Shown here piece by piece: positions 2,201 to 19,377 of a DNA stretch of 23,075 bases; position 1 is the first letter of the stretch, and the number at the start of each line of letters is the position of its first letter. The notes under the pieces were generated by a model, which saw only the letters and a program-made list of their open reading frames with translations, had not been told where the DNA came from and ran no database searches. The position numbers were made by a program, and so were the translations under genes. Source of the stretch: a virus; IMG/VR virus record IMGVR_UViG_3300008050_000336, positions 1 through 23,075 of that record, one strand, 5' to 3'.

Positions 2201-3559
2201 ATGAGTAAAATAGCAGAATTGGAAGAGGCGAAAAATACTGCTGATGAATTAATTGATTTAGAAAGGCAAAAAGAAGAGGCCAAAGAAGAATTAGAAACAA
2301 CCACAGGAATTAAACTTAATAAGTGGTTAAATTCGCAAAGCATAGATGATGAACATACAGTATTAAAGAACCTAAGTATTGAATATAATATGAATCTTTC
2401 TGATGCTAAGAAATCATTAGAGTCTTTCCCTACAGAATATATAGTACAAGATAAGACTGTTCCTGACATAGTTAAAGATTTAAGAAAATATAAGCGTACA
2501 TTAAAAGGTGAAAATAAATACTCTTTAAATAAAAGTATAGAGTCATTAGTATTTGCTTATTCAGACCACTTAGAAAAATGCATTGATTCTATATATTGGT
2601 TAAATAAATATAAAATCCCATTAAAAAATATGTCTTTTACCGAAATGGATTTAAAGAAAATACATTCTGTTAAAGATAAAGAATCTAGAAGAAACATTAT
2701 AGATATGTTATGTAAATATTGGGAAGTTAGTTTAGATTCACAAGATTTACCATATAATACAGAGTACGCTCAATTACAAAAACAAATGAGATTACATAAA
2801 AAGGATTTCCGAAAATGTATTAAAGAAATAAACCATCAGGTTATTAGAAAGAATCTAAATAGGCAATTAAAAGATACTATACTTAAAAGCGTTTGTTCAA
2901 ATCCTGGAATTTCAGCAAGGGAAATACATGAGCAATTAGATAATAAATTATACCAAAGGTCTTCTCCTAATATGATTTCTAAATTAATTAAAGGATTAGG
3001 AATAACAAATGTAGATGGAGCCTATTATAAATTTGATGATAGTATTAGGAAAAGTTTACCTGCTTATACCGCAGCATTTATTGATTCAGATGGGTATATC
3101 ACTTTAGATTCTAATTACAATCCTAGAGTTGGTTTAGTAGCGACTGGTGATAGGGGTAAAGCATTTATGATTGAAATGCAAAAAAGTCTTGGGTATGGTA
3201 AATTACACCTTGACCAAAAATCTCCACAAAATACTAGGCCAGTAAATAGATTAAATTTCTATTCACAAGATGATGTTCGTAAATTATTAACTGATTGTAG
3301 GCCACATTTTAGATTAAAGGGTCCACAAGCAGATATTCTTCTAGAATTAATTCGTATTAAGAAAGGGTTTAAAAAACAAGATTGGGCAAAAGATAGGTAT
3401 GTCGAATTGTATAAATTAATGAAGTGGAATAATCATCAAGATAATGCTAGATATGATTGGCAGAAATATAATATAGATATTGAAAATATTTCTAAATATG
3501 AGGAGAATAATAAAATGGAAATTATGAATGATATAGAATCTATAGTAAAGGAGGCATAA
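2201..3559 (+). CDS. Winged-helix plus LAGLIDADG-domain protein
   Basis: This 452-residue protein lies between terminase and portal. Residues 1-215 are charged and helical and not recognised. Residues 222-280 look like a winged helix: a helix ending in an N-P-G-I-S-A-R-E-I-H turn, a second helix and a wing with AYYKF. Residues 288-390 carry one LAGLIDADG-like motif, YTAAFIDSDGYI (289-300; acidic residues D295 and D297), followed by alternating strands and helices. LAGLIDADG proteins with a single motif usually act as dimers and cut long DNA sites. The same fold plus a helix-turn-helix also makes transcription factors such as WhiA. It may be a free-standing homing endonuclease, a DNA-binding protein, or a packaging cofactor in place of a small terminase. 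The domain call is fairly sure; the role is not. Confidence 0.8.
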   Translation: MSKIAELEEAKNTADELIDLERQKEEAKEELETTTGIKLNKWLNSQSIDDEHTVLKNLSIEYNMNLSDAKKSLESFPTEYIVQDKTVPDIVKDLRKYKRTLKGENKYSLNKSIESLVFAYSDHLEKCIDSIYWLNKYKIPLKNMSFTEMDLKKIHSVKDKESRRNIIDMLCKYWEVSLDSQDLPYNTEYAQLQKQMRLHKKDFRKCIKEINHQVIRKNLNRQLKDTILKSVCSNPGISAREIHEQLDNKLYQRSSPNMISKLIKGLGITNVDGAYYKFDDSIRKSLPAYTAAFIDSDGYITLDSNYNPRVGLVATGDRGKAFMIEMQKSLGYGKLHLDQKSPQNTRPVNRLNFYSQDDVRKLLTDCRPHFRLKGPQADILLELIRIKKGFKKQDWAKDRYVELYKLMKWNNHQDNARYDWQKYNIDIENISKYEENNKMEIMNDIESIVKEA

Positions 3560-3563
3560 GATT

Positions 3564-5204
3564 ATGGCAGAAAAGAAGCGATTTTCAGTTAAGAATTTTT
3601 TTAGAGCAAAGACTCCGCCTCCTGCTGATAGGCAAGTATGGCAAATGGGGATTCAAGAAAGGTCTGATTCTATATTTATGACTACTCCTATATTGTATAG
3701 TGTAGCCAATTCATCAGTAATAGTTAGGACTTGTACTACTCAATTAAAAAATGAAATATTTAGAAGAGGGTATGAATGGCATTCTAAATTTGCAGTTAAA
3801 TGTGAAGAATGTGGCAAAGAGCACTCCAATACTGTTGATGAATGTGCAGAGTGTAAAGGCCATAATTTAAGAAAGCCTGATAGAAAACAATTAGAATATG
3901 CAGAAAATATGTTTGATGGTTATGTTAATTCTTCTGAACAATTACTTATTGATGTATTAAGAGAATTAGAAGATGATTTAAATATATTAGATGATGCATA
4001 TATTGTATTAGTTAAGGAATATTTTTTAGATGGTAATGGAGATATTAAATTACATAGAATAAAGGAGATTTATCGTGGCGACCCTGTATCAATGAATATT
4101 TATGCCGATGAATATGGTGAAAGAGGCATTAAAGGTTTCACATCTTTAACAGATAGGGCATTTATTTCAGAAGATGTTAATGAATGTCATCCTGAAACTA
4201 GTGAAACATTACATCCTGTTCATTATGTAAATAGAGTACATGGAGAGGAGCAATATTTTGTAAAAGGAGAAGTATTACATTTTAGTAAATATTCACCATC
4301 TAGATTATATGGGCAATCACCAGTAGTGACTCTATTTAGCCATATTACTACTTTACTTGCTATGGAAGCCTATGTTAATACTTCTTATACAAAAAGCAGA
4401 ATGCCAAGAGGATTATTAGCAGTACAGACTAGAAATATGGATTCAATGAGAACCTTTTGGAGGGCTGTTAAAGAGAAGATGGAAGAAGACCCACATTTTA
4501 TTCCAATAATGGGAATAGAAGCAGATAATGGTAAAGGCTCTGTTGAGTGGATTAAATTCATGGATAGCCTTAAAGAGATGGATTATGTATCTGTGAAAGA
4601 AGATTTAAGGGATAGGATTGGTGCGTTCTATGGAGTATCTAAGATATTTATGGCTGATTCTTCAACAAGTGGTGGATTAAATAATGAAGGTATGCAAATA
4701 CTAGTAACTAATCGTGCAGTTGAAATGGCTCAAAATGTTTATAATCACTATATGTTCCCGTGGTTAGTGGGTGAATTTGGAATTACTGATTGGAAATTAG
4801 TATTACCTCCTTCAGAAGAAGAAGACGAAATTGCTAAATTGCGAAAGAGAGAAATAGAAGTTAATATCGCTGCTTCTGTTAAGAATCTAGGATTTGAGGT
4901 TGATATGGATGATGAAGGTGAATTTGTGTTTAGTAAGCCATTACCATCTCCAGAAGCAAAACCGAAAGAAGGAGAAAAAGGTACTGAAAAAGACCCGTAT
5001 GCAGGTACAGATATAGATGCTAGTCAATTAGGGCAATTACAAGAACAAGCATTAACGGGAGGAAATAATCAACCGCAAGAAGGTGGTGGAGCCACAAGGA
5101 ATAAACCCTCAATGAGCGTAGGACCGGACAATAGGCAATCAGGATTACCCAAAGAGGCCGGAAATCAAAATGTTGATAAAAGAACAGAAAGAAAGGTTGG
5201 ATGA
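3564..5204 (+). CDS. Portal protein with inserted zinc ribbon
   Basis: A 546-residue protein in the normal portal position after the terminase. The portal forms the dodecameric ring at the capsid vertex through which DNA passes. Supporting features are the segment YGQSPVVTLFSHITTLL followed by a helix and a MPRGLLAV strand, then an AFYGVSKIFM segment and a long helix rich in N, E and M, which is the usual portal core and stem pattern. Near the N-terminus, residues 80-97 form CxxC-x10-CxxC (C80, C83, C94, C97), a zinc-ribbon knuckle not usual in portals. From about residue 460 the tail is disordered, rich in G, P, Q, N and E. GGAGG at 3549-3553 is the likely ribosome site. Portal call strong by pattern and position. 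Confidence 0.88.
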   Translation: MAEKKRFSVKNFFRAKTPPPADRQVWQMGIQERSDSIFMTTPILYSVANSSVIVRTCTTQLKNEIFRRGYEWHSKFAVKCEECGKEHSNTVDECAECKGHNLRKPDRKQLEYAENMFDGYVNSSEQLLIDVLRELEDDLNILDDAYIVLVKEYFLDGNGDIKLHRIKEIYRGDPVSMNIYADEYGERGIKGFTSLTDRAFISEDVNECHPETSETLHPVHYVNRVHGEEQYFVKGEVLHFSKYSPSRLYGQSPVVTLFSHITTLLAMEAYVNTSYTKSRMPRGLLAVQTRNMDSMRTFWRAVKEKMEEDPHFIPIMGIEADNGKGSVEWIKFMDSLKEMDYVSVKEDLRDRIGAFYGVSKIFMADSSTSGGLNNEGMQILVTNRAVEMAQNVYNHYMFPWLVGEFGITDWKLVLPPSEEEDEIAKLRKREIEVNIAASVKNLGFEVDMDDEGEFVFSKPLPSPEAKPKEGEKGTEKDPYAGTDIDASQLGQLQEQALTGGNNQPQEGGGATRNKPSMSVGPDNRQSGLPKEAGNQNVDKRTERKVG

Positions 5205-5206
5205 TT

Positions 5207-5443
5207 ATGGCATGGAAAAATATAGTTAAAAAAGATGAAGATAAAGCATATCAACAAAGATTGAAAAATATGCTTGAAGAAACTGGTCAAACAGGAATGG
5301 GCTTAAATAAATTTAATAAAGCAGTTGATGAAGTCTATACTATCATTAATCATTTTGTAGAGAAAGGAGATTTAGACTATGATAAACATTTAATGGAATT
5401 TACAAAGATTATAGATTCTATTGCGAAGAAATTAGGTGATTAA
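5207..5443 (+). CDS. Small protein of the M-x-W-x-x-x-[LV]-K family (member 1)
   Basis: A 78-residue charged, largely helical protein starting MAWKNIVKKDEDK. I recognise no known family, but its N-terminus matches three other small proteins in this window (starts 8434, 8760 and 9083). ATG 5201 overlaps the portal stop and is an alternative. I prefer ATG 5207 because it places the shared motif at the very N-terminus and the GGATGATT before it resembles the local ribosome site. The last codons, GGT GAT TAA, double as the ribosome binding site of the next gene. A structural or scaffold-helper role is only an inference from location. Confidence 0.8.
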   Translation: MAWKNIVKKDEDKAYQQRLKNMLEETGQTGMGLNKFNKAVDEVYTIINHFVEKGDLDYDKHLMEFTKIIDSIAKKLGD

Positions 5444-5653: not shown

Positions 5654-8437
5654 ATGACACTACTTAAAGCCTATCTTATTGGGTCCAATGACCCATTTTT
5701 ATTGGCTAGAGTATATCATGATGAATATATTTTGAAAGATTCATATTATATTAAGGATTATATTGATGAGCAGATGAAAGTATATGAAGTTGAATTAAAT
5801 GCACAGGGGCTACATTTACAAGATATGAAGCGTAATTTAGAAATTTCTTGGAGAAATATTAAAGAAATAATACGAGATTACGAATTAAATATTTGGGCAG
5901 AGGAAACTAAAAGAGAGAAAATTTATGAGCAAGCAGGGAAAACATTTGATTCTACGAAAGTAAAAGATGATGATGCTCAATTTAAAGTGATTTATGAAAA
6001 GCATAGGAAAGTACTTAGAGAAAATAGAGATAGGTATTTTAAATTAAAAAAAGAAATCACTAAGCAAAAGAAAGTAGTTAAAAAATTACTTGGGGAATTT
6101 AAAAAGGCAGAACATGAATTATATATTAAATATGCCAAAACTGATAAAACCGATTATGAAAAAAATATGTTTGTGTTAAAATTTGAAAAATTAGGTTTAA
6201 AATTAATAAAGGAACAATTAGAATTAACTAAAAAAATGGCTAAGGAGACAGTTGATGAAAAGGGCGTATCAGTATTACAAATACCTGATTCTAAAACAGT
6301 TATAAATACTAATAAGAAATATAAAAAGGAATTAGATAAATTATATGCGGAGAAGAAAAAGAGAGCAGACAATCCAGACCTTCCCATTATTGTTGAATGG
6401 AGTAAAACATTTCTTGAATTAATGGGAAAGTGGGGCAAACAATTAGAAAAAGATATGGAACTTGATGAAAGTGGAATGCAATATTTTAAGAAATATTATA
6501 CTGATAAAATTAAGTTTTATGAACAGAGAATAAAAAGGTCGGAAAAGAAAATAAAAGCATTAAAAAGTGGTAAGTCATTAAGTGAAACTCAAAAACTCAT
6601 TGCTGGTAGTCAATTAGCAAGAACTAAACCTCGTGGGACACGAAGAAAATTATCACATAAAGGAAAGAAGACCTTTACAGATATAGAAGTTATAGATGGT
6701 TTAATGGAGACATTCCCTAAAACAACACGGCAAACATTTTATAATCAATTATCTACTTGGATAGAAGAAGAACCTGAATTATTTAATATTTCGGTTATTG
6801 CTGGTTATAAGAAAGAAAAGAGAGGTAAAACCCATACATTAGTAGAAGAGGGTGTAGATAGTGCTAGAAATAGGAACCTTTTGCAATTAAAAAAAGTTTT
6901 TGAATCAATAGCAGAGATGCAAGCCAAGGAAGAAAAAGGTGCGCCTGAAAGAGATGTTAATGCTATTTTATTAGTTATAAATAATGAATTGGATAGAGTT
7001 AAAGAAGCCCCTGTATCTGCAAAGGAAGGAAAAACAAAAGAGCAGCACACTTCTATATTAGATTGGTATAAAAATTTAGATACGAAGTTAACTAAATTAA
7101 AAAATCAATTAATTAAAATTAAAGGTAAAGTAATTCCCCAAGTAGTTAAAGGTAAAATAAGAGCAATATTAAAATTAAATTTTAAATCAGTAGGGAAAAA
7201 TAAAGGTAAAACTCCTGTTAAAAAAGTATTATTAACAATTGGAAGTCGCTCAATAAGAAATGCAATTTATGAATTACACCCTATTATAACAAAAAGACCT
7301 GAAGGACAAGTTGAGGGTGATACTACATATTCTGTAGGAAAAGGAGCATTTATTAGTGATTTAAAAAAAGTATATGAATCAATAAAAACTACATTAAATC
7401 ATAAAGTAGGAGATGATGTTGTTCTTGAATACATTATTAATACTCAAATTAAAAGAAAAGTTCCACAGTTTATTACGGAAACCGAAGAGGATGTTAAATC
7501 GTTAGAAGATGTTAAAACATTTTTACAGAATAATAATATAAAAAGTTTAAATGAAGAAGATGAAGATACATTAGAAGATATTTTAAAGGAATTAGTAGTA
7601 AGTTATAATAGGTTAATTAAGGATGAAAATTTATCCAATTTAGACAAAGAAGGAAAAACATTTAAAGAAATCCTATCTGTCCAAATACCAAAAGCACGAG
7701 AGTTAATTGGAAAAATGCCTAAGCAACATGAAAAGAAAAAGGAATTAATTGAAGCATTTCAAAATTTAAATAAAGTATATGGGGCGACTAGATTAGAAGT
7801 TAGTGAGATTACTTTAACTAAAAAAGAAAAACTTATTCAACTGAATGAAAGGATAGTTACTGCTTATCATAATCAATTAAAACGTGCTGATTTAAGTGAA
7901 GATGAACAAAGGAAATTTCTTAAGGCTATGATGCCATATAAAAGTAAAGCAAGAAAAAATAGAATTGCAAATGCAATAATGCGTTCTGAAAACGCAACTA
8001 GTAGTTTAATGCAAGAATTGGAAGCATTAGGTAAATTAGAATTAGGTGCATTTGCAGAACCAAAGAAAGCAGGAAAGGGTTTCTTAGATGTTAGCGAACT
8101 TTCTGAAGACCAATTGAATAGATTAGAAGAACAACAAGCAAGAGAAGCCAGCACAACTCAACCTAAACAATTTACTGAAGTTGGTGGTGATTATACTTAT
8201 GAAGGTGAATCTGCTAAAGACGCCGATAAAGAACTTGAAGATGCAAGAATAAGAGAAGAAGAATATGAACAAGCACAAGAAGATGCTAAAATTAGGGAAG
8301 AGGAAAGGCAACAAGGGAAATATGTTGAAGAACCTGAAGAAGAACAACCTGATTATGAAGTTAATGAAGAAGAATATGGTGCAGGAGATTTAACTGAAGA
8401 ATATGAACAAAAGCCATTTGAGGATGATGAATCATGA
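5654..8437 (+). CDS. Large charged coiled-coil protein, unknown function
   Basis: At 927 residues this is the largest protein in the window. It is dominated by Lys/Glu-rich helices with predicted coiled-coil character. Basic segments lie in the middle, and the last 70 residues are strongly acidic (ending KPFEDDES). Near the C-terminus a 14-residue unit beginning EDA[RK]IREEE is repeated twice in tandem (8237-8320). No enzymatic motif, signal peptide or membrane span was seen. The start is ATG 5654, two bases after the upstream stop; the ribosome site is weak (AGTGGT), suggesting translational coupling. Portal-proximal positions often hold minor head or internal virion proteins, and an elongated protein packaged with the DNA would fit, but this is inference. 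Confidence 0.85.
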   Translation: MTLLKAYLIGSNDPFLLARVYHDEYILKDSYYIKDYIDEQMKVYEVELNAQGLHLQDMKRNLEISWRNIKEIIRDYELNIWAEETKREKIYEQAGKTFDSTKVKDDDAQFKVIYEKHRKVLRENRDRYFKLKKEITKQKKVVKKLLGEFKKAEHELYIKYAKTDKTDYEKNMFVLKFEKLGLKLIKEQLELTKKMAKETVDEKGVSVLQIPDSKTVINTNKKYKKELDKLYAEKKKRADNPDLPIIVEWSKTFLELMGKWGKQLEKDMELDESGMQYFKKYYTDKIKFYEQRIKRSEKKIKALKSGKSLSETQKLIAGSQLARTKPRGTRRKLSHKGKKTFTDIEVIDGLMETFPKTTRQTFYNQLSTWIEEEPELFNISVIAGYKKEKRGKTHTLVEEGVDSARNRNLLQLKKVFESIAEMQAKEEKGAPERDVNAILLVINNELDRVKEAPVSAKEGKTKEQHTSILDWYKNLDTKLTKLKNQLIKIKGKVIPQVVKGKIRAILKLNFKSVGKNKGKTPVKKVLLTIGSRSIRNAIYELHPIITKRPEGQVEGDTTYSVGKGAFISDLKKVYESIKTTLNHKVGDDVVLEYIINTQIKRKVPQFITETEEDVKSLEDVKTFLQNNNIKSLNEEDEDTLEDILKELVVSYNRLIKDENLSNLDKEGKTFKEILSVQIPKARELIGKMPKQHEKKKELIEAFQNLNKVYGATRLEVSEITLTKKEKLIQLNERIVTAYHNQLKRADLSEDEQRKFLKAMMPYKSKARKNRIANAIMRSENATSSLMQELEALGKLELGAFAEPKKAGKGFLDVSELSEDQLNRLEEQQAREASTTQPKQFTEVGGDYTYEGESAKDADKELEDARIREEEYEQAQEDAKIREEERQQGKYVEEPEEEQPDYEVNEEEYGAGDLTEEYEQKPFEDDES
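8237..8320 (+). repeat. Tandem repeat, two 42-base (14-residue) units
   Basis: Two consecutive units, 8237-8278 and 8279-8320, lie in the 3' part of the 927-residue gene. They encode EDARIREEEYEQAQ and EDAKIREEERQQGK. The DNA copies have diverged at synonymous positions, so the duplication is not recent. The repeat extends an acidic, probably helical tail. Confidence 0.7.
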
Positions 8438-8757
8438 CTTGGCAAAATGTGTTAAAACGTGATACTGGGTTATTAGCCAGCATATCAGATAAGGAGAAAA
8501 AGAAGTTAAAGAAGACTTTACAATCTGCTGAACCTTCTGAATTTTTTGGGAAAGATTTTACTCATTTAGGGAGTTTAGTAGAAATGTTAGAAGATATGGA
8601 TTTGATAAAGGGTGATAAGAAAATGCAGAAGAAAATGAAAGCATACGGTGAAAGAAATTTAGACATTGTTGCTACTGCTGCTAAATTAAGAAAAGATTAT
8701 GAATTATTATATTTTCAATTAAGAGGAATGGTATATCCAAAAAAGAAAGGTGATTAA
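8434..8757 (+). CDS. Small protein of the M-x-W-x-x-x-[LV]-K family (member 2)
   Basis: A 107-residue, Lys-rich helical protein starting MTWQNVLKRDTG. The start overlaps the preceding stop in ATGA (8434-8437), indicating translational coupling. It shares only the first ~9 residues with the other members; the remainder is unlike them. The final codons GGT GAT TAA provide the ribosome site of the next gene. Function unknown; coiled-coil content and the run of similar genes suggest a role in head assembly. Confidence 0.8.
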   Translation: MTWQNVLKRDTGLLASISDKEKKKLKKTLQSAEPSEFFGKDFTHLGSLVEMLEDMDLIKGDKKMQKKMKAYGERNLDIVATAAKLRKDYELLYFQLRGMVYPKKKGD

Positions 8758-8759
8758 AT

Positions 8760-9077
8760 ATGAGTTGGAAAAATAAATTAAAGAAAAATGAAGAAATGTT
8801 TGGATGGGGCCAAGAAGACGGTTCTGAAACTGATTATTCAGAAGAAAGAGAAGCGATGCAAGCATCCCATGATAAAAGTCATTCAGAATTAAAACAAGTT
8901 CTTAATGAAAGTATGGATGACCTCAAAGGAGAATTTAATAAGTTATTAAAACTTATTGTTGAATTCAATATACATGGTGGATTTATAGAAGATAAATTAT
9001 GGGAAGATATGGATGATATAACAAGTTATATTAGTAAATTAAATCGTGGTATAGAAAAAACATATTTAAGTAGGTGA
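8760..9077 (+). CDS. Small protein of the M-x-W-x-x-x-[LV]-K family (member 3)
   Basis: A 105-residue acidic helical protein starting MSWKNKLKKNEEMFG. A disordered acidic stretch at residues ~15-35 is followed by two amphipathic helices. AGGTGATTAAAT gives the start an ideal ribosome site made from the previous gene's last codons. No known family is recognised. The C-terminal helix (DMDDITSYISKLNRGI) faintly resembles the scaffold C-terminal motif described for the genes at 9083, 9382 and 12779, but too weakly to rely on. Confidence 0.8.
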   Translation: MSWKNKLKKNEEMFGWGQEDGSETDYSEEREAMQASHDKSHSELKQVLNESMDDLKGEFNKLLKLIVEFNIHGGFIEDKLWEDMDDITSYISKLNRGIEKTYLSR

Positions 9078-9082
9078 TTAAG

Positions 9083-9376
9083 ATGAGTTGGCAAGAAATA
9101 TTAAAAGAAGAAGATAAATGGAAGCCTGAAAGAGAAACAGGTTGGAAAAAAGAACCAAGAGGAACCCCTGTTAAAAGGGTTGGGTCAGAATTACAATGGG
9201 GAATGGATGAGAATGTACCTATTCCTGAAGATACATCAGATATAGATACTCTTGCTGAACAAACTAGGGAAGATATAATGGATATGGTTATGGATAAAAT
9301 TGGGCAAATGTCTAAGAAAGAATTAATTGATTTATTAATTGAAACGAAAGGAAAATTAGAAGAAATTAAGGTGTGA
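9083..9376 (+). CDS. Small protein of the M-x-W-x-x-x-[LV]-K family (member 4)
   Basis: A 97-residue protein starting MSWQEILKEEDKW; the start is ATG 9083, set by AGGTGATTAAG just upstream (the GTG within that site is not the start). A Pro, Gly and Trp rich middle without regular structure is followed by a C-terminal helix. That helix (DKIGQMSKKELIDLL, then a Gly six residues on) aligns with the scaffold C-terminal motif in spacing of its Asp, Ile, Met and Gly. It may therefore carry both the shared N-terminal tag and a capsid-docking tail. Function remains inferred. Confidence 0.8.
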   Translation: MSWQEILKEEDKWKPERETGWKKEPRGTPVKRVGSELQWGMDENVPIPEDTSDIDTLAEQTREDIMDMVMDKIGQMSKKELIDLLIETKGKLEEIKV

Positions 9377-9381
9377 TTAAA

Positions 9382-9618
9382 ATGACAGACGAAAACCAAA
9401 CATTAGAAATATTAAAACTATTAGTAGAAAAAATAAGCAAATTAGAACAGACTGTGTATAATCAAGATAATGTCTTGATGAAATCAGGATTGGTGAAAGC
9501 AGAAACGCCTACACCTAAGATTAGTAATAATTCTGATATGCCTGATGCCGATACAATTTCAAAAATGAGTTGGGACCAAATTAACAACATGGTATCACAA
9601 ATGGAGGGTTCAATATGA
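9382..9618 (+). CDS. Small coiled-coil protein with scaffold-like C-terminus
   Basis: A 78-residue protein. Residues 5-30 form a heptad-like helix (LEILKLLVEKISKLEQTV), residues 40-55 are a Pro/Asn linker, and residues 57-78 match the C-terminal 22 residues of the protease-scaffold protein (shared core D-x-I-x-K-M-x-W-x-x-I). Start ATG 9382 follows GGTGTGATTAAA. In tailed phages the scaffold C-terminus binds the capsid protein. The shared tail therefore suggests that this protein docks on the inside of the shell or co-assembles with the scaffold. The final bases overlap the next start in ATGA. Confidence 0.8.
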   Translation: MTDENQTLEILKLLVEKISKLEQTVYNQDNVLMKSGLVKAETPTPKISNNSDMPDADTISKMSWDQINNMVSQMEGSI

Positions 9619-10225: not shown

Positions 10226-12739
10226 ATGCCATTAACCGGCCTCAAATTTAAAAAGGAAGCAGATGTGCTTTCTGACCAATTATATAGGTTATTTGAGAAC
10301 ATAAGAGTCGCTTATTTATCTGCAAAGCAAGACCCTAAATCTTATACAAAGATGTGGCATAAAGCATTAAGTAAATTAACTTCTCAATATAATGACATTG
10401 ATGACTTAGGCCGTGTATTACAACAAGCAATTACAGAAAAAGAAATAGAACACAATGAAGCCAAAAACCCTGAATCTGCTCATGCTAGAAATATATATGA
10501 TGCCATTAAGGAATTACGTTATGCTTCTAAACATATAAAAGACCCCTTCATTAAGAAATATGGTGATAAAACATTAGAAACTTTATTAGAAGATAAAGTA
10601 GTCTTTGCTATGTTTATTCATTGGGCCATGCGGTCTAGTGAGAATGCCTTATCTAATGATTATTGGCAAGAATTTACTAAAGATGGGGATTTAATTACGG
10701 ATGGGTATAAAGGTTTAGATATAACCATTAAAGATATACCTAGTTTTGTTATAGAACATTATGGTGATGATAAAAATACTCAATCAGTAAAAACAAAATT
10801 TGATGGTGCTCTATCATTATTAAAGAAAGTATTTACTTCTTTATCAGATGAAGATGATTGGGAACATTTAGTAGGTATAGAAATATCTAAAGCAGAAAAA
10901 GAAGATATAGATTTTTTAGTACCAAATAAACCTATGTATAGAATATTTGATGTTAAAGATATAGAAGAATTACAAGGTTTTAGTGGTGATTGGTTAGTCC
11001 AAGAAAAATATGATGGAATGCGAATTCAAATTCATAAAATAGATAATAAAATAAAAATGTATTCTTATAATAAAAAGGATATTACTGATAATTGTAAAGA
11101 GATAATAGAAAAATTGCGCCCAAAGAAATTTGGTGATTGTATTTTAGATGCTGAATTAATGATGTTTAATAAAGATAAACCATTAAGAAGGGCAGCAGTT
11201 ATTTCTAAGGTATTTAAAAAGTCAAAAGACGAAGGAGAATTAAGAGCGCACGTTTTTGATATAATGAGACATAATGATAGGGATTTAACAGATGTAGATT
11301 TAAAGGAAAGAATGCAAATCTTACATCAAAATTATGCTCCACATTCTCATGAATTATTAGCATTCCCATCTAAAAAAGATAGTAGAATAGCGGATTCATT
11401 AACAGAAATTGAATCATATGCTAAAGAAATTATGAAGATACCTACATCAGAAGGTGTAGTTATTAAAGATTTAACTTCTACTTATTTTAAAGGCACAAAG
11501 AAAAACCCTAAATGGATTAAATGGAAAAAGTTTGTAGACTTAGATTTAATAGTATTAGAGAAAAAATCCACTAAGTCTAAATTATTTTCATATACTTTAG
11601 GGGCCGGCCCTCTATTATTAGAAGAGGCTAGAAAATTAGATTCGGTCAAACATGATGATAGGCATTATTTAAATGTAGGAAAAGCATTGAATACTAAAGT
11701 AGATGTTGAAATTGGTAGTATTGTTAGGGTTAAAGTTGATGAAGTTAAGATGAATAAAAAGGGAGAAATAAGAGTATTTTCTGCTAAAGTAGTAGAGATT
11801 CCTGAAGTAGAATTACCTGATAAAATTATTACATTAAAATTATTAGCAGGAGATTCTGATTCCTCAAGTTATAAAGCAAAGGCATTAGAAAAATCAATAA
11901 TAATTACAGATGGTATTCATGGAGAAGCAGAGGTAATTTTAAAATCTGATATGAATGGCTTTACTATATATGGATTTAATGGTGATACATTAATGACTAA
12001 AAATGCTATTGCTGATTTAGATGTAGTTAAAGAAGAAATAACTACTTTAATGAAAGAAAAGAAGGGTTTCTTTAGAGTAGGCATTAAGAATTTTATACAG
12101 GCTAGGGATTCACAAAAGGCTACATTAAAAGAAATAGAAGAACATATTGCTAAACATTCTAAATTGAAGAAATTATATGCAGAAATTTGGGATAATGATT
12201 CTAAGAAATTAAGTAATTATCTAAAAAATAATGCAGAAGAAATATTATTTGAAGGTAATAGTACTTTTACAGTAGATGTAGATATAATAGAAAAAAAGTA
12301 TAAAACGCCTGAAGAATACAGAAAGGGTCAATTTAAAATATATAGTAGACAAGATAACAATTTATCCTTAACATTTTTATTAGGTGATGAGAAAATAGGT
12401 TGGGAAATTAAAATAAAAGAAGATGATGATATTTTTGATTTATTTGGCAAAACTAAGAAATTTCCAGCAAAGGTTCAAGAAACAGTTTCTAAGGAAAAAT
12501 TGATTGATTCTGGAGAAGTAGAATTAGGTGTTCAAAGACATGGTTATCATGAATATATATTAAATGGGGAGAAATTTCAAACTAAGATTCATGTTAGAGT
12601 AGTACCATTAGAAGGAGAAAAACGCTGGATTATCTTTAGTAGCAAAGAACAAGAACCAGTGGATTCAGATACAGATGATGGAATATGGGATATTAGGGAA
12701 GATAAGAATAAAGATTTGTCCTTTGAAGGGCTGGCATAG
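10226..12739 (+). CDS. ATP-dependent DNA ligase with a long C-terminal extension
   Basis: An 837-residue protein. Residues ~250-530 form an ATP-dependent ligase core: motif I KYDGMR (261-266) with the adenylated Lys at K261, LDAE (307-310), FDIM (344-347), motif IV EGVVIK (409-414) and motif V WIKWKKF (430-436), then an OB-fold-like region. It would seal nicks in DNA using ATP. The N-terminal 240 residues are helical and occupy the place of the DNA-binding domain in archaeal ligases, without obvious sequence match. Residues ~540-837 are an unassigned extension; part of it (744-805) is strand-rich with KFPAKVQ and HGYHEYILNG. Start ATG 10226 has AGGTGATT. A ligase within the head module, next to the protease, is unusual. 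Ligase identity is strong; the biological role is open. Confidence 0.9.
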   Translation: MPLTGLKFKKEADVLSDQLYRLFENIRVAYLSAKQDPKSYTKMWHKALSKLTSQYNDIDDLGRVLQQAITEKEIEHNEAKNPESAHARNIYDAIKELRYASKHIKDPFIKKYGDKTLETLLEDKVVFAMFIHWAMRSSENALSNDYWQEFTKDGDLITDGYKGLDITIKDIPSFVIEHYGDDKNTQSVKTKFDGALSLLKKVFTSLSDEDDWEHLVGIEISKAEKEDIDFLVPNKPMYRIFDVKDIEELQGFSGDWLVQEKYDGMRIQIHKIDNKIKMYSYNKKDITDNCKEIIEKLRPKKFGDCILDAELMMFNKDKPLRRAAVISKVFKKSKDEGELRAHVFDIMRHNDRDLTDVDLKERMQILHQNYAPHSHELLAFPSKKDSRIADSLTEIESYAKEIMKIPTSEGVVIKDLTSTYFKGTKKNPKWIKWKKFVDLDLIVLEKKSTKSKLFSYTLGAGPLLLEEARKLDSVKHDDRHYLNVGKALNTKVDVEIGSIVRVKVDEVKMNKKGEIRVFSAKVVEIPEVELPDKIITLKLLAGDSDSSSYKAKALEKSIIITDGIHGEAEVILKSDMNGFTIYGFNGDTLMTKNAIADLDVVKEEITTLMKEKKGFFRVGIKNFIQARDSQKATLKEIEEHIAKHSKLKKLYAEIWDNDSKKLSNYLKNNAEEILFEGNSTFTVDVDIIEKKYKTPEEYRKGQFKIYSRQDNNLSLTFLLGDEKIGWEIKIKEDDDIFDLFGKTKKFPAKVQETVSKEKLIDSGEVELGVQRHGYHEYILNGEKFQTKIHVRVVPLEGEKRWIIFSSKEQEPVDSDTDDGIWDIREDKNKDLSFEGLA

Positions 12740-12778: not shown

Positions 12779-14197
12779 ATGACAAGTGCATCGGCATATG
12801 TTTCAGGAATAGAACATAACTTTAGTATATTAAAATCAAATGACTTACATATTGCGGGATATGCTTCAATAGAAATGGTTGACAAACAAAATGATTTAAT
12901 CACATTAGAAGCATTAAATGAAGCCGTTAAAAAATACATGAAAGATACAAAATATAGAAATGTAATGTCAAATCATTCAAATGTTCAAGTTGGAGAAGTC
13001 GTTAAAGAGTACCGAGATAATAATGGTAGATTATGGAAAACAGATGTTGATGATGTTGGGTTTTTTGTAGTAATAAAAATGAGAAGTGATATTGAGAAAG
13101 CAAAAGAAATTGCAAGAGAAATTCGTACAGGTAATTTACGTTCATTTAGTATTGGAGGACAGGCATTAGAAAAGAAATCAAAAACTAATGTTGAGTTAGG
13201 AGAATATAACGAAATAAGTAAATTAGATTTACATGAAGTAACAATTTGTGAAAAAGGAATAAATCCAGAAGCAAAATTTGATATTTTGAAACAAGAAAAA
13301 GGTGAAAATATGACAGATATAGCAAGCGCATTAAAGGAACTAAATACAGTATTAAAGGGAATGGATGACATAGAAAAATTTGGTACATCTGCCCCAACAG
13401 CATTAAAAGCAATTAGAGATGGAAAAAATAATGCAGAGGTTAAATCTGCTTTTGAAACTGATATGACTAATATGAATGGAAATGAAGTTGCTTGGAGTAG
13501 AATTGAAAAAGTAGCAGACCATTTAGGAATGGATAGAAAACAAACTCAAACATTAATAGCAAGTGTAAATAAAGACTTAATAGTAAAACAAGGTGAGAAC
13601 ATGAAAAAAGAAGAATATTTAGATGATGAATCTGAAATTGAAGCGCAAGATGATGAAGAAGATATTGAAATGGCATCATCTGAAGAAACAAATGAAATGC
13701 CTGATATTGAAGCAGCAGAAAAAGCAGACTTAGCATATGGAAGTGATGTTCAAGGTTCTTATGCTGGAAAAGAAGTTGTTTCCGGTGGAAAAGCAAAAGC
13801 CCGTGATTCAGTTCACAAAGAGGTTTATGACGGTGTATCAACACTTGATTTAAGTCATGAGAATCTTGAGAAGGCTTATGAGCAATTCAAGGCAGAACAA
13901 TTAGAGAAGATGGCTTATGATGACATTAAGAATACATTTGAGTCAAGATTCCAAACAGAAGTATCAGTTAAGAAGTCTGAAATTGAGAAGACTAATTATG
14001 ATGCAAAGTCTGAAGTAGATGCACTTAAGAATCAATTCGGTGATTTACTAAAGTCATTGAAGAATGAGCAAGAAACAGTTATCCGCAAGCAAGAAGAGGT
14101 TGTTGCAAACTTAAATATCCCAACATCTGATGAAATTGCAAAGATGGATTGGAATGAAATACATTTGGTGGCCCAAAGATTAAACGGGGAACTTTGA
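12779..14197 (+). CDS. Prohead protease fused to scaffold protein
   Basis: A 472-residue protein. Residues 20-170 resemble phage prohead serine proteases of the XkdF/S78 type: AGYASIEMVDKQND, then NVMSNHSNVQVGEVV with candidate catalytic H66, RSFSIGG with candidate S122 or S124, and LHEVTICEKGINPEAKF with H152. From about residue 178 it is a helical, acidic and coiled-coil rich scaffold, ending in a capsid-docking-like tail D-E-I-A-K-M-D-W-N-E-I. This fits a protease that removes the scaffold and matures the shell of the capsid protein encoded next. Two in-frame internal starts with good ribosome sites (13310 and 13601) probably yield scaffold alone. Lysine codon use switches sharply to AAG in the last third. 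AGGTGATT precedes the ATG. Confidence 0.88.
   Translation: MTSASAYVSGIEHNFSILKSNDLHIAGYASIEMVDKQNDLITLEALNEAVKKYMKDTKYRNVMSNHSNVQVGEVVKEYRDNNGRLWKTDVDDVGFFVVIKMRSDIEKAKEIAREIRTGNLRSFSIGGQALEKKSKTNVELGEYNEISKLDLHEVTICEKGINPEAKFDILKQEKGENMTDIASALKELNTVLKGMDDIEKFGTSAPTALKAIRDGKNNAEVKSAFETDMTNMNGNEVAWSRIEKVADHLGMDRKQTQTLIASVNKDLIVKQGENMKKEEYLDDESEIEAQDDEEDIEMASSEETNEMPDIEAAEKADLAYGSDVQGSYAGKEVVSGGKAKARDSVHKEVYDGVSTLDLSHENLEKAYEQFKAEQLEKMAYDDIKNTFESRFQTEVSVKKSEIEKTNYDAKSEVDALKNQFGDLLKSLKNEQETVIRKQEEVVANLNIPTSDEIAKMDWNEIHLVAQRLNGEL
13300..13312 (+). promoter_or_regulatory. Internal ribosome binding site and start (scaffold, 295 residues)
   Basis: AGGTGAAAATATG lies in frame inside the protease-scaffold gene. 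The AGGTGA and its four-base spacing match the ribosome sites of the independent genes here. Starting at ATG 13310 (residue 178) would make a 295-residue product lacking the protease domain and beginning MTDIASALKELN, exactly at the domain boundary. This parallels the nested scaffold (Nu3 within C) of phage lambda. Confidence 0.55.
13591..13603 (+). promoter_or_regulatory. Second internal ribosome binding site and start (198 residues)
   Basis: AGGTGAGAACATG, also in frame, would start at ATG 13601 (residue 275) and give a 198-residue product beginning MKKEEYLDDESE. Both internal sites encode the same local peptide, GEN, just before the Met, because the ribosome site is read as codons GGT GAR AAY. 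The product would contain only the acidic linker, coiled coil and C-terminal docking motif. Confidence 0.42.
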
Positions 14198-16761: not shown

Positions 16762-17145
16762 ATGGCAGCAATAGATAGAGACACAAGATTAGTAATGACG
16801 ATTTTATTCGTTGGAGCAGTTAGTGGAATGAATGTATATTTTTATGCAAATTATGGTGCAGAATTACCGTGGACACCATTCGCTCATGCAATATTATTTT
16901 CATTAATGACGATTGGGGCAGTTATGGGAATTAAAGCCTTAATGGATTTAGCAATGAATGATAGGATTGAGTTATGGTTATTAGATAGAAAGATTAGAGT
17001 ATATTGGGAAAAGAAGCAACGAGAAGATACTCAAAGGTCTAAAATTGCTGATAATATGAGGCAATATAATTATCAAGTACCAATGGTGCAACAACCATCT
17101 TATGACGAAGTATCACAACAATTTTTGGCTGAAATAGAGGCATGA
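16762..17145 (+). CDS. Small membrane protein with two transmembrane segments
   Basis: A 127-residue protein with hydrophobic helices at about residues 10-29 (LVMTILFVGAVSGMNVYFY) and 40-64 (FAHAILFSLMTIGAVMGIKAL), followed by a basic then hydrophilic tail (LDRKIRVYWEKKQRED; the end is rich in Gln). The hairpin probably places both termini on the same side; the charged C-terminal half would be cytoplasmic by the positive-inside rule. AGGTGAATTAA precedes the ATG. Together with the next gene it forms a small membrane pair just before a GTPase. Membrane proteins are unusual in a head module. Function unknown. Confidence 0.8.
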   Translation: MAAIDRDTRLVMTILFVGAVSGMNVYFYANYGAELPWTPFAHAILFSLMTIGAVMGIKALMDLAMNDRIELWLLDRKIRVYWEKKQREDTQRSKIADNMRQYNYQVPMVQQPSYDEVSQQFLAEIEA

Positions 17146-17360
17146 ATATGGGGATTATTCCTAATATATTAGGTGTTGATGAACAAGGATTAGCATATGA
17201 TATTACAAGGGCTCATTCTGCTGATATATGGTTTTTAAAAATGAGAGCATGGTTTTGGGGTATTAGTACGGCAATATTTATGTTATTATTAGGAAATATA
17301 GTTGGTTCTTTAGGTTTTAATTTTTTTAGTGAAACATTTGCATTATTTGAAAATTGGTGA
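17142..17360 (+). CDS. Small membrane protein with one transmembrane segment
   Basis: A 72-residue protein with one clear hydrophobic helix at about residues 36-59 (FWGISTAIFMLLLGNIVGSLGF), preceded by a soluble N-terminal part and ending with an aromatic tail (FFSETFALFENW). The ATG overlaps the preceding stop (ATGA), which suggests coupled synthesis with the two-helix protein; ATG 17148 is a possible alternative. No family recognised. Its stop overlaps the ribosome site of the GTPase gene, implying joint expression of all three. Confidence 0.75.
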   Translation: MNMGIIPNILGVDEQGLAYDITRAHSADIWFLKMRAWFWGISTAIFMLLLGNIVGSLGFNFFSETFALFENW

Positions 17361-17366
17361 TTTCAT

Positions 17367-18038
17367 GTGTCTCTTATGGCGGGATTTGCAGTAGTAGTTG
17401 CTGAAGCAGGATTAAATATTTATAATAGATTTCATTGTCAAAATTTTGGTATTTATGGTGCAGAAAAAGTAGGAAAAACTACATTACATAGACAATTAAG
17501 AACAAGGGGCGAAGTATCTGAAATAAAAGAAAGAACTCCAGGATTACAAAGAGCATCAAGAAAGTTAGTTAAAATTGATGGGGATATTAGAACGATAAAG
17601 GCCGCAGATGTTGGAGGACAAAGCCAATTTTGGCATGAATGGGCAAAAGATATGAGAAAAAGAAAAGTACAATATATTATATTTCTTATTGATTCTAAAC
17701 ATATAGATGAAACATTTAATTTACAAAACCAATTAGCATGGCAATTTTTAATAGATATTATTTTAGATACACATTGGAGAACAGGGCGTAAACATAAGAA
17801 AAAGAAACATCATGATTATCCAACAGCAATAGGTTTATGGGCGAATAAATATGACGAATGGGGAAACAAATATGAATACGACGGGCCACCCGACAAACAC
17901 CCTATATTTGAACCTTTCAAATTGGGAATACAGAGACTTAATGAGATTGGTATACCGACACACAAATACATCATAAGTGCAAAAACAGATTCAGAAATGG
18001 TATATAGGGGAGTTATGACCATGATTAAGGATTATTGA
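17367..18038 (+). CDS. Arf/Ras-like small GTPase
   Basis: A 223-residue protein with every signature of a small GTPase. It has a P-loop GAEKVGKT (31-38), a candidate G2 threonine at T57 (ERTPG), G3 DVGGQ (81-85), the form typical of Arf and G-alpha proteins, G4 NKYD (160-163) and G5 SAK (204-206). Strand YIIFLIDS (103-110) precedes the G4 region. It should bind and hydrolyse GTP and switch conformation. The N-terminal 18 residues are hydrophobic or amphipathic, a possible membrane-association helix as in Arf. A Lys/His-rich loop (GRKHKKKKHHD, 140-150) lies before the G4 strand. The start is GTG 17367, six bases after GGTGA; ATG 17376 is less well placed. It lies just after two membrane proteins. 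The GTPase call is strong, its role in a virus unknown. Confidence 0.88.
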   Translation: MSLMAGFAVVVAEAGLNIYNRFHCQNFGIYGAEKVGKTTLHRQLRTRGEVSEIKERTPGLQRASRKLVKIDGDIRTIKAADVGGQSQFWHEWAKDMRKRKVQYIIFLIDSKHIDETFNLQNQLAWQFLIDIILDTHWRTGRKHKKKKHHDYPTAIGLWANKYDEWGNKYEYDGPPDKHPIFEPFKLGIQRLNEIGIPTHKYIISAKTDSEMVYRGVMTMIKDY

Positions 18039-18047
18039 GGTGATTAA

Positions 18048-18704
18048 ATGGCAATGATTTTTAATCCGGGTTTAATTCCTACAAGTACTCTATCTAGTAA
18101 TAGTATAAACAATCCATATAATTATACTGATTTGCATTCTGCAAGAGGTATGGGGCCAATTACTCCTTATCAGTATAAATCATTGAAAACTAAGAAGCAA
18201 CTAAAAGAACTTAAAGCAGTTCTATTGCCTCAAAAGAAAAAATTCCTTTTCTTAAAATACAGTTTTTCCTTCAATATTAAGGAAAGATGTGTAATTTGTG
18301 GAGTACAACATAATTGGGATATTAGTGATGAATTAAGACCACCTATTCCTTTATCTCATGTTGAAAAAGGCAGACCGTTGAAAGGTACTTATTGTCCTAA
18401 ACATGCTTCAATGTATAAACAATTAGAAATGTTAGAACAACAAATTTTAGCGGAGAAACATGGTTTAGAATTTAAAAAATATATTCCTAAACCTAAGATG
18501 CCTACCTTAAATAGAGGCCCAATGAAAGATTTACGGCCTCAAGATATAACTTCTCTTATTGCAGTAGGTTGGGAAATAAAGCCACCCCAAGGGACTAAAG
18601 AAACGCCTGTTGAACAATATAGTAGGTTAATGTTTGAAATTCAAGGTAAATTAAATCAAATTCAAAAAATAATACCTATAATGGAGGTCGAGGAAAATGG
18701 TTAG
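18048..18704 (+). CDS. Unknown protein with a C2CH zinc-binding motif
   Basis: A 218-residue protein. The core has CVIC (C81, C84) and, after about 30 residues, CPKH (C116, H119), which together could hold one zinc ion. The N-terminal 45 residues are Asn/Ser/Pro-rich and probably disordered. A basic segment follows (LPQKKKFLFLK). After the zinc module come a helix (MYKQLEMLEQQILAEKHG) and a Pro-rich part ending in a helix. AGGTGATTAA precedes the ATG. It follows the GTPase by nine bases, so it could belong to that cassette, or be a minor head protein. Not recognised as any known family. Confidence 0.78.
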   Translation: MAMIFNPGLIPTSTLSSNSINNPYNYTDLHSARGMGPITPYQYKSLKTKKQLKELKAVLLPQKKKFLFLKYSFSFNIKERCVICGVQHNWDISDELRPPIPLSHVEKGRPLKGTYCPKHASMYKQLEMLEQQILAEKHGLEFKKYIPKPKMPTLNRGPMKDLRPQDITSLIAVGWEIKPPQGTKETPVEQYSRLMFEIQGKLNQIQKIIPIMEVEENG

Positions 18705-19377
18705 AAATAGTACATTAAATACCGCTTTACAAACACAACAGCAGAGTAATTTTAAGACAGTGAATAATTTATTAACATTACAAGATAACCATGTTGAAGA
18801 ATTTTTTCAATATCACGGTGAAGAATTTTTTGTCGCATTTGATAATATGATAGAAGATATTATTCAAAGAGTAGTTAGTAATATGCTTTCTAAATTAGAA
18901 TTTATATTAGACCCTACGACAAATCATATGGTTTTACAATCTGATTGCTTAAGTGAATACCAAAAAATTACGCAAGAAAATATCCAATTAGACATTCAAA
19001 CATTATTGGGTACAGCAGTTAATTCAGAAGTGATAATGCAGCGAAAACTTGCTAAACAATCATATTTAGAAGCACAAGGTTTTACTCCACCAGCAAACAC
19101 TCAGAATGCACCTATGGGAGCCGTTGGCGGTACACCAATGATGGGAGTAGGAGCGGGAATGCAAATGTCTCAGGGAGGCTACACACAGGGCATACAGGGT
19201 ATGAATACAGCACAGCAAACAGGTTATCCTGTTGCACCTGTGGGATATGATAATTCAGGAAATGCCTATTGGATTGATGAACAAACCGGACAAATGACAT
19301 ATACTCCCCCTAATGGTGGATTAGGTTTAATGAAGTCAGCCACTAAAATAGCAGCATGGGCGAAATGGTTGGCTTGA
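18697..19377 (+). CDS. Unknown protein with Gly/Met/Gln-rich middle
   Basis: A 226-residue protein. The N-terminal ~125 residues are helical with aromatic clusters (VEEFFQYHGEEFFVAF). Residues ~130-180 are a low-complexity Gly/Met/Gln/Ala linker (GVGAGMQMSQGG and similar). A small unit with two tryptophans or tyrosines (GNAYWIDEQTGQMTYTPP) and a short hydrophobic end (KIAAWAKWLA) follow. The start overlaps the previous stop and has a strong GGAGGTCGAGGA site. Such an arrangement (helical anchor, flexible linker, binding tip) occurs in minor virion proteins, but no family is assigned. Confidence 0.75.
   Translation: MVRNSTLNTALQTQQQSNFKTVNNLLTLQDNHVEEFFQYHGEEFFVAFDNMIEDIIQRVVSNMLSKLEFILDPTTNHMVLQSDCLSEYQKITQENIQLDIQTLLGTAVNSEVIMQRKLAKQSYLEAQGFTPPANTQNAPMGAVGGTPMMGVGAGMQMSQGGYTQGIQGMNTAQQTGYPVAPVGYDNSGNAYWIDEQTGQMTYTPPNGGLGLMKSATKIAAWAKWLA

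Follow-up and report, generated by a model that had tools for sequence, protein, structure and literature searches.

The release of tailed archaeal viruses from their hosts is poorly understood, and in the surface ocean the relatives of the magroviruses belong to the common viruses of archaea. The Magrovirales are tailed viruses that are linked to the Poseidoniales and that are recognised by a DNA polymerase B split in two genes, a GroEL, a genome of about 90-100 kb and two opposed gene clusters (PMC12999244, PMC10768690). Since the related families Apasviridae and Aoguangviridae have no integrase and were inferred to be lytic (PMC12999244, PMC10768690), some module acting on the host envelope is to be expected. 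A GTPase acting on an archaeal membrane has been described in Haloferax, where ArvA functions in vesicle budding together with the partners encoded in its operon (PMC10927574).

Here, we analysed a stretch of viral DNA of 23,075 nucleotides (IMG/VR record IMGVR_UViG_3300008050_000336, positions 1 to 23,075; hereafter the window), a 23-kb fragment which carries the head module only. The capsid protein, protease and adaptor of the window are collinear with those of the head modules of Magrovirales and Druskaviridae, and a gene for a small GTPase is located among them.

Results

Affiliation of the virus

The capsid protein of the window matches the Haloarcula viruses HVTV-1 and HCTV-1. DNA polymerase B was found in 16/16 long relatives, with two matches (a split gene) in 14 of them, GroEL-like ORFs are present in the genomes G001 and G016, and the genes of G001 are arranged in two opposed clusters. 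From these sequence marks of the long relatives we conclude that the virus belongs with the magroviruses. As the window holds only the head module, a Poseidoniales host is assigned by kinship.

The GTPase gene is intact and conserved

The gene is located on the plus strand (17367-18038) and encodes a protein of 223 amino acids starting with GTG. This start was accepted because a Shine-Dalgarno sequence, GGTGAT, is located 5 nt upstream (17356-17361, plus strand) and because the [M/V]S N-terminus is kept across the family, residue 2 being a serine; the GGTGAT core recurs ahead of further genes in this operon. In IMG/VR, a pattern-seeded scan yielded 386 relatives, and 110 sequences, the window included, were aligned. 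The initial annotation, which was made from the sequence of the window, had proposed a small GTPase with five visible motifs in a viral head module. Indeed, the open frame is intact, the Pfam cut-offs are passed and all five motifs are present on the plus strand, i.e. G1 or P-loop GAEKVGKT (residues 31-38, 17457-17480), a candidate G2 threonine in switch I (Thr57 of RTxG, 17535-17543), G3 DVGGQ in switch II (residues 81-85, 17607-17621), G4 NKYD (residues 160-163, 17844-17855) and G5 SAK (residues 204-206, 17976-17984). Apart from residue 85 the motifs are fixed, with no variation at G31, G36, K37, T38, T39, T57, G59, D81, G83, G84, N160, K161, D163, S204, A205 and K206 in 110/110 homologues, so that none of the 110 lacks these residues of G3 and G4.

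The exception concerns the catalytic-type glutamine, which had been part of the original description of the G3 motif: DxGG is fixed, but residue 85 is glutamine in 54 and glutamate in 56 of the 110 homologues and thus not a family-wide glutamine. Both residues alternate on a tree of 68 rows, on which roughly five changes can be placed, and starred branches force at least two of them. Because glutamate at the catalytic position is compatible with hydrolysis in Ras (Q61E), Glu85 does not in itself represent a loss of function.

The gene is under strong purifying selection, with a median pairwise dN/dS of 0.04 (282 pairs) at a median dS of 1.2, which is near saturation. In a comparison of six proteins by mean identity, the GTPase ranks first with 0.69, while the capsid protein reaches 0.66.

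The protein is a divergent Ras-superfamily GTPase

The best Pfam match of the window GTPase is Arf with 24.5 bits (cut-off 22.3), and MMR_HSR1 scores 22.6 bits (cut-off 21.9). Among 21 members of the family, MMR_HSR1 and Roc were matched by 21/21 each, Ras by 18/21 and Arf by 9/21. A profile search against the PDB gave partial matches covering residues about 26-120, with a best E-value of 8e-4. AlphaFold2 models were built from 21 sequences (pLDDT 68) and from 55 sequences (pLDDT 78), and both predict a helix at residues 2-22 followed by the strand and helix order of a G domain. In Foldseek searches against the PDB, Rab1, Gz, Rab33 and Ras lead the matches of the pLDDT-78 model, with Arf ranking lower (Rab1, Rab33 and Ras: E 3e-8 to 6e-7, TM by target 0.5-0.7), while Galpha, Rab33 and Arl13B come first for the shallower model of pLDDT 68. 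The predicted structure is thus that of a Ras-superfamily G domain and not of another P-loop fold.

Membership of the Arf family, which the initial annotation had read from the DVGGQ motif, is too specific and was rejected, since MMR_HSR1 and Roc are matched by all 21 members and Arf by only nine, the nearest folds are Rab1, Gz and Rab33, and the glutamine of G3 is often a glutamate. Compared with the WDxGGQ of Arf, switch II has alanine or serine in place of the tryptophan, then the fixed DxGG and then Q or E, and the Gly2 myristoylation site of the Arf family is not present, residue 2 being the serine mentioned above. The safe name, judged from sequence and models, would be a divergent small GTPase of the Ras superfamily, without specific reference to Arf.

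The predicted N-terminal helix (17370-17432, plus strand), located directly before beta-1, is hydrophobic or amphipathic in character. Its family means are 0.39 for hydrophobicity and 0.30 for the moment, compared to 0.15 and 0.27 for the ARF1 helix.

The GTPase belongs to a cassette of five genes

Two genes of the membrane type by hydropathy are located directly upstream of the GTPase on the plus strand, as had been noted from the start. TM1 (16762-17145; 127 aa) contains a pair of hydrophobic helices and ends in a basic tail, and TM2 (17142-17360; 72 aa) has an invariant RAHSAD before a single transmembrane segment; judged from the positive charges, the basic tail of TM1 and the RAHSAD of TM2 are probably on the cytoplasmic side, on which the GTPase would also be located. 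Two further plus-strand genes follow downstream. The product of g18048 (18048-18704; 218 aa) contains an invariant C81-x2-C84 and C116-x2-H119, likely to form a zinc site as judged by this pattern, and was without a match in Pfam (21 members) or in the PDB profile search. That of g18697 (18697-19377; 226 aa) has a conserved YWxDxxxGQ and a KWLA C-terminus and was without a match in the PDB profile search.

The five genes, TM1, TM2, GTPase, g18048 and g18697, form a cassette of fixed order. Together with the preceding gene, the full series g16350-TM1-TM2-GTPase-g18048-g18697 is present in 96 of 110 loci, and contig ends account for most of the incomplete ones. When loci were sampled by TM2, TM1 adjoined TM2 in 76/76 testable cases and the GTPase was located downstream in 71/71, directly adjoining in 67. 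The proposed tie of the GTPase to its two membrane neighbours thus holds both physically and evolutionarily, and the three-gene block is conserved.

Evolutionary distances of the GTPase correlate with those of the maturation protease (r 0.94) and of the adaptor (r 0.93). When the protease distances were controlled for, the partial correlation with the GTPase was 0.51 for TM2, 0.47 for g18048, 0.41 for the adaptor, 0.35 for TM1 and 0.34 for g18697. Since the adaptor itself reaches 0.41, this measure is too unspecific, and co-evolution was discarded as proof of an interaction of the GTPase with TM1 and TM2.

We also compared the proteins with predicted membrane segments in four divergent genomes (G001, G008, G016 and G007). 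Those found in all four are TM1, TM2, a long tape-measure-like protein and the GTPase, whose N-terminal helix is near the cut-off for membrane segments and whose row was not flagged in each of the four genomes; other proteins with membrane segments each occur in one or two. The cassette is therefore the sole universally conserved membrane module in these four genomes besides the tape-measure-like protein. An alternative small membrane-acting candidate is a peptide of 51-52 amino acids with a single transmembrane segment, which is encoded in two of the four genomes at the junction of the opposite-strand cluster and the late operon (G001:C1:48302-48460 and G016:C1:47618-47773, both minus strand).

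Distribution of the cassette

When loci were sampled by the capsid gene and had at least 4 kb of downstream sequence, TM1, TM2, GTPase and g18048 were found in 47/47. A wider scan with the capsid protein revealed a sister marine clade (L213-L216 and L219), in which the ligase, protease, capsid protein, g15609 and adaptor are kept, together with a g16350-like protein (E 2.6e-5). Unlike in the window, the cassette genes are missing from this site in the sister clade, where a protein of 599-885 amino acids follows directly, and in HVTV-1, the region from the capsid gene to the adaptor (E 1.3e-18) contains no GTPase. A search of 11 cassette-less records with the GTPase profile gave no match, the longest sister record being 64 kb, and in a control the GTPase as a single-protein query did match the window. 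The absence of the cassette from this site of the head operon is thus clear for the sister clade and HVTV-1, while a genome-wide absence is not proven for the sister records of up to 64 kb. The cassette behaves as one unit, the gain or loss of which took place between g16350 and the gene product preceding the adaptor.

No relatives of the GTPase were detected among 50,697 INPHARED phage records and 72,556 PLSDB plasmid records, and in PHROGs the GTPase, TM1, TM2 and g18048 are all without a family. In cellular genomes, relatives were restricted to two contigs (L036 and L037) of one Maricaulis-labelled MAG, which are probably misbinned virus contigs.

Further features of the head operon and its relatives

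Many otherwise unrelated small late proteins share a short N-terminal tag with the consensus M-[ST]-W-[EQK]-D-I-L-K, which is present in the window at 5201-5443, 8434-8757, 8760-9077 and 9074-9376 and also in L263-L282 (genomes G001, G008, G016 and G007). In these four genomes, 32 of 510 ORFs carry the tag, compared to 0.11 in shuffles; they belong to 29 body families, and 31 of the 32 are encoded on the late strand. The tag is likely to be a capsid-targeting or packaging peptide. A related pattern, KM[SD]W[DN]xI, is located at the C-termini of a small protein (9373-9618) and of the maturation protease/scaffold (12779-14197) (SKMSWDQINNMV, AKMDWNEIHLVA) and may either dock with the N-terminal tag or mimic it. 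Small or coiled ORFs, several of them with the W-D-I-L-K tag, are inserted between TM2 and the GTPase in L283 (6221-7834), L286, L297 and L316.

An ATP-dependent DNA ligase with an intact KYDGMR (10226-12739) is encoded in the head operon immediately ahead of the protease. A second ligase of the relatives is located in the opposite-strand cluster, and the distant relatives L208, L212, L217 and L218 have a tandem pair of ligase-like genes at the ligase site. Between terminase and portal, the gene at 2201-3559 is HNH/homing-endonuclease-like in residues 288-415 (phrog_5046, E 7.5e-6) and is likely to be a mobile insertion.

Discussion

We infer membrane binding, GTPase activity, physical interaction and an egress role for the cassette, and our tentative reading, which we hold with somewhat less than even confidence, is that the GTPase acts late as a GTP switch which is anchored to the membrane and serves egress or membrane remodelling. 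The GTPase would be expressed alongside the late (virion) genes of magrovirus-type viruses, and its N-terminal helix together with the obligate partners TM1 and TM2 would place it at the cytoplasmic membrane of the host. In the GTP state it may gather TM1 and TM2, and perhaps the products of g18048 and g18697, at the membrane, where the gathered TM1 and TM2 could deform or open the membrane once virions are ready and thereby permit egress. Hydrolysis of GTP, which may be possible with glutamine or glutamate at residue 85, would set the timing or allow recycling. Since the cassette is the membrane module shared by the four genomes besides the tape-measure-like protein, and since the related families lack an integrase, this late, conserved module with its GTP switch is the best candidate for an action on the host membrane. 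Several observations argue against an egress switch: the cassette is located among the head genes, whereas lysis genes are often found where a late operon ends, and this position suits a role in assembly or in the virion equally well; the sister clade and HVTV-1 manage without the cassette, so that tailed archaeal viruses in general do not require it; membrane proteins of single lineages could be the lysis genes; and the partial correlation with TM2 is only slightly above that with the adaptor, TM1 falling below both.

A rather unlikely alternative, which suits the gene position equally well, is that proheads or necks are assembled at the membrane with TM1 and TM2 as anchors, and that the GTPase controls the recruitment or release of the assembling head. 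The cassette is located between g16350, a probable decoration protein, and the head-tail adaptor g20958, collinear with the head genes, and the distances of the GTPase follow those of protease and adaptor; the corresponding location in HVTV-1 is occupied by gp124, likewise a small protein with a single hydrophobic segment. However, the sister clade has the same head genes and no cassette, and assembly at a membrane is not general in tailed viruses.

It is improbable that the GTPase serves a take-over of the host, mimicking or sequestering a small GTPase of the host or its regulators in vesiculation, polarity or motility, a role that the initial annotation had also considered. Throughout the Euryarchaeota, small GTPases are common and vesiculation is under their control (PMC10927574), and Rab/Ras GTPases are present in eukaryotic giant viruses, but the constant tie to two viral membrane proteins and an identity above that of the capsid protein suggest viral partners, and a late operon would be an odd location for an early take-over gene. 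We therefore favour a membrane role over host-GTPase mimicry by the GTPase acting alone, based on the invariant partnership with TM1 and TM2 and on the late operon.

TM1 and TM2 might also be carried in the head or neck of the virion and, with the GTPase bound to them, form a channel at the membrane of the next host or dock one there. This would fit the location in the head-neck module and the strictly joint inheritance with structural genes; in a particle without GTP supply, an enzyme that looks soluble and has a conserved GTP site would be unusual, and we consider this role quite improbable. That the ORF is a degenerate or chance P-loop frame without GTPase function is hardly conceivable, since, in spite of partial and weak profile matches, G1-G5 are fixed in 110 homologues save residue 85, dN/dS is 0.04 and the fold is matched by Foldseek.

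The universally conserved and cleanly insertable cassette, combining a GTP switch with two membrane proteins, provides a concrete candidate for the exit step of an archaeal virus. The wider notion that a prokaryotic tailed virus has its own GTPase-driven membrane machine, consisting of the GTPase, two membrane proteins and a zinc-type protein, for remodelling or opening the archaeal membrane during egress, is doubtful; if true, it would represent a virus-encoded release unlike holin-endolysin lysis, ESCRT-type budding and virus-associated pyramids.

Among cellular systems, the vesiculating ArvA-ArvB-ArvC of Haloferax resembles the viral cassette in combining an archaeal-type GTPase with operon partners, a proposed N-terminal membrane helix and a zinc-type partner (PMC10927574), while the partners in the viral cassette are membrane proteins and the genes are viral and located inside a head operon. 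Membership of ArvABC was rejected: ArvB/OapB (PF09846) was found in 0/15 long relatives, with a control search matching in Haloferax volcanii, and g18048, the adjacent protein searched in 21 members, matched neither the ArvC zinc-ribbon DUF2072 nor any other Pfam family. Since the ArvB partner is missing, ArvA vesiculation may serve as a precedent by analogy only.

Our full-text literature search, which covered magrovirus papers other than Philosof 2017 and Prabhu 2025, revealed no report of a magrovirus GTPase. The protein represents a new family of a known kind of enzyme in a new setting. It shares G1-G5, the predicted G-domain fold and the size with Ras, Rab, Arf and SR-beta (TRAFAC), and has a predicted helix before beta-1 as do Arf, where it is amphipathic, and SR-beta, where it is transmembrane. 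The identity to these proteins is only about 15-20% with no clear subfamily, the catalytic position is glutamine or glutamate, and, unlike them, the viral GTPase has two inserts, one Lys-rich and preceding beta-5 (residues about 139-148), the other between G4 and alpha4. In a search of viral structures, Rab/Ras GTPases of giant viruses lead the matches, and the sole phage entry among the best 50 is an adenylate kinase at rank 49 (TM 0.3). Klosneuvirus, Pithovirus and Tupanvirus likewise encode a small GTPase fold, but they infect eukaryotes, and their GTPases are, by database names, eukaryotic Rab/Ras paralogues. While the structure search showed viral GTPases of this kind only in eukaryotic giant viruses, at the locus described here a prokaryotic virus encodes a small Ras-superfamily GTPase within its cluster of virion genes.
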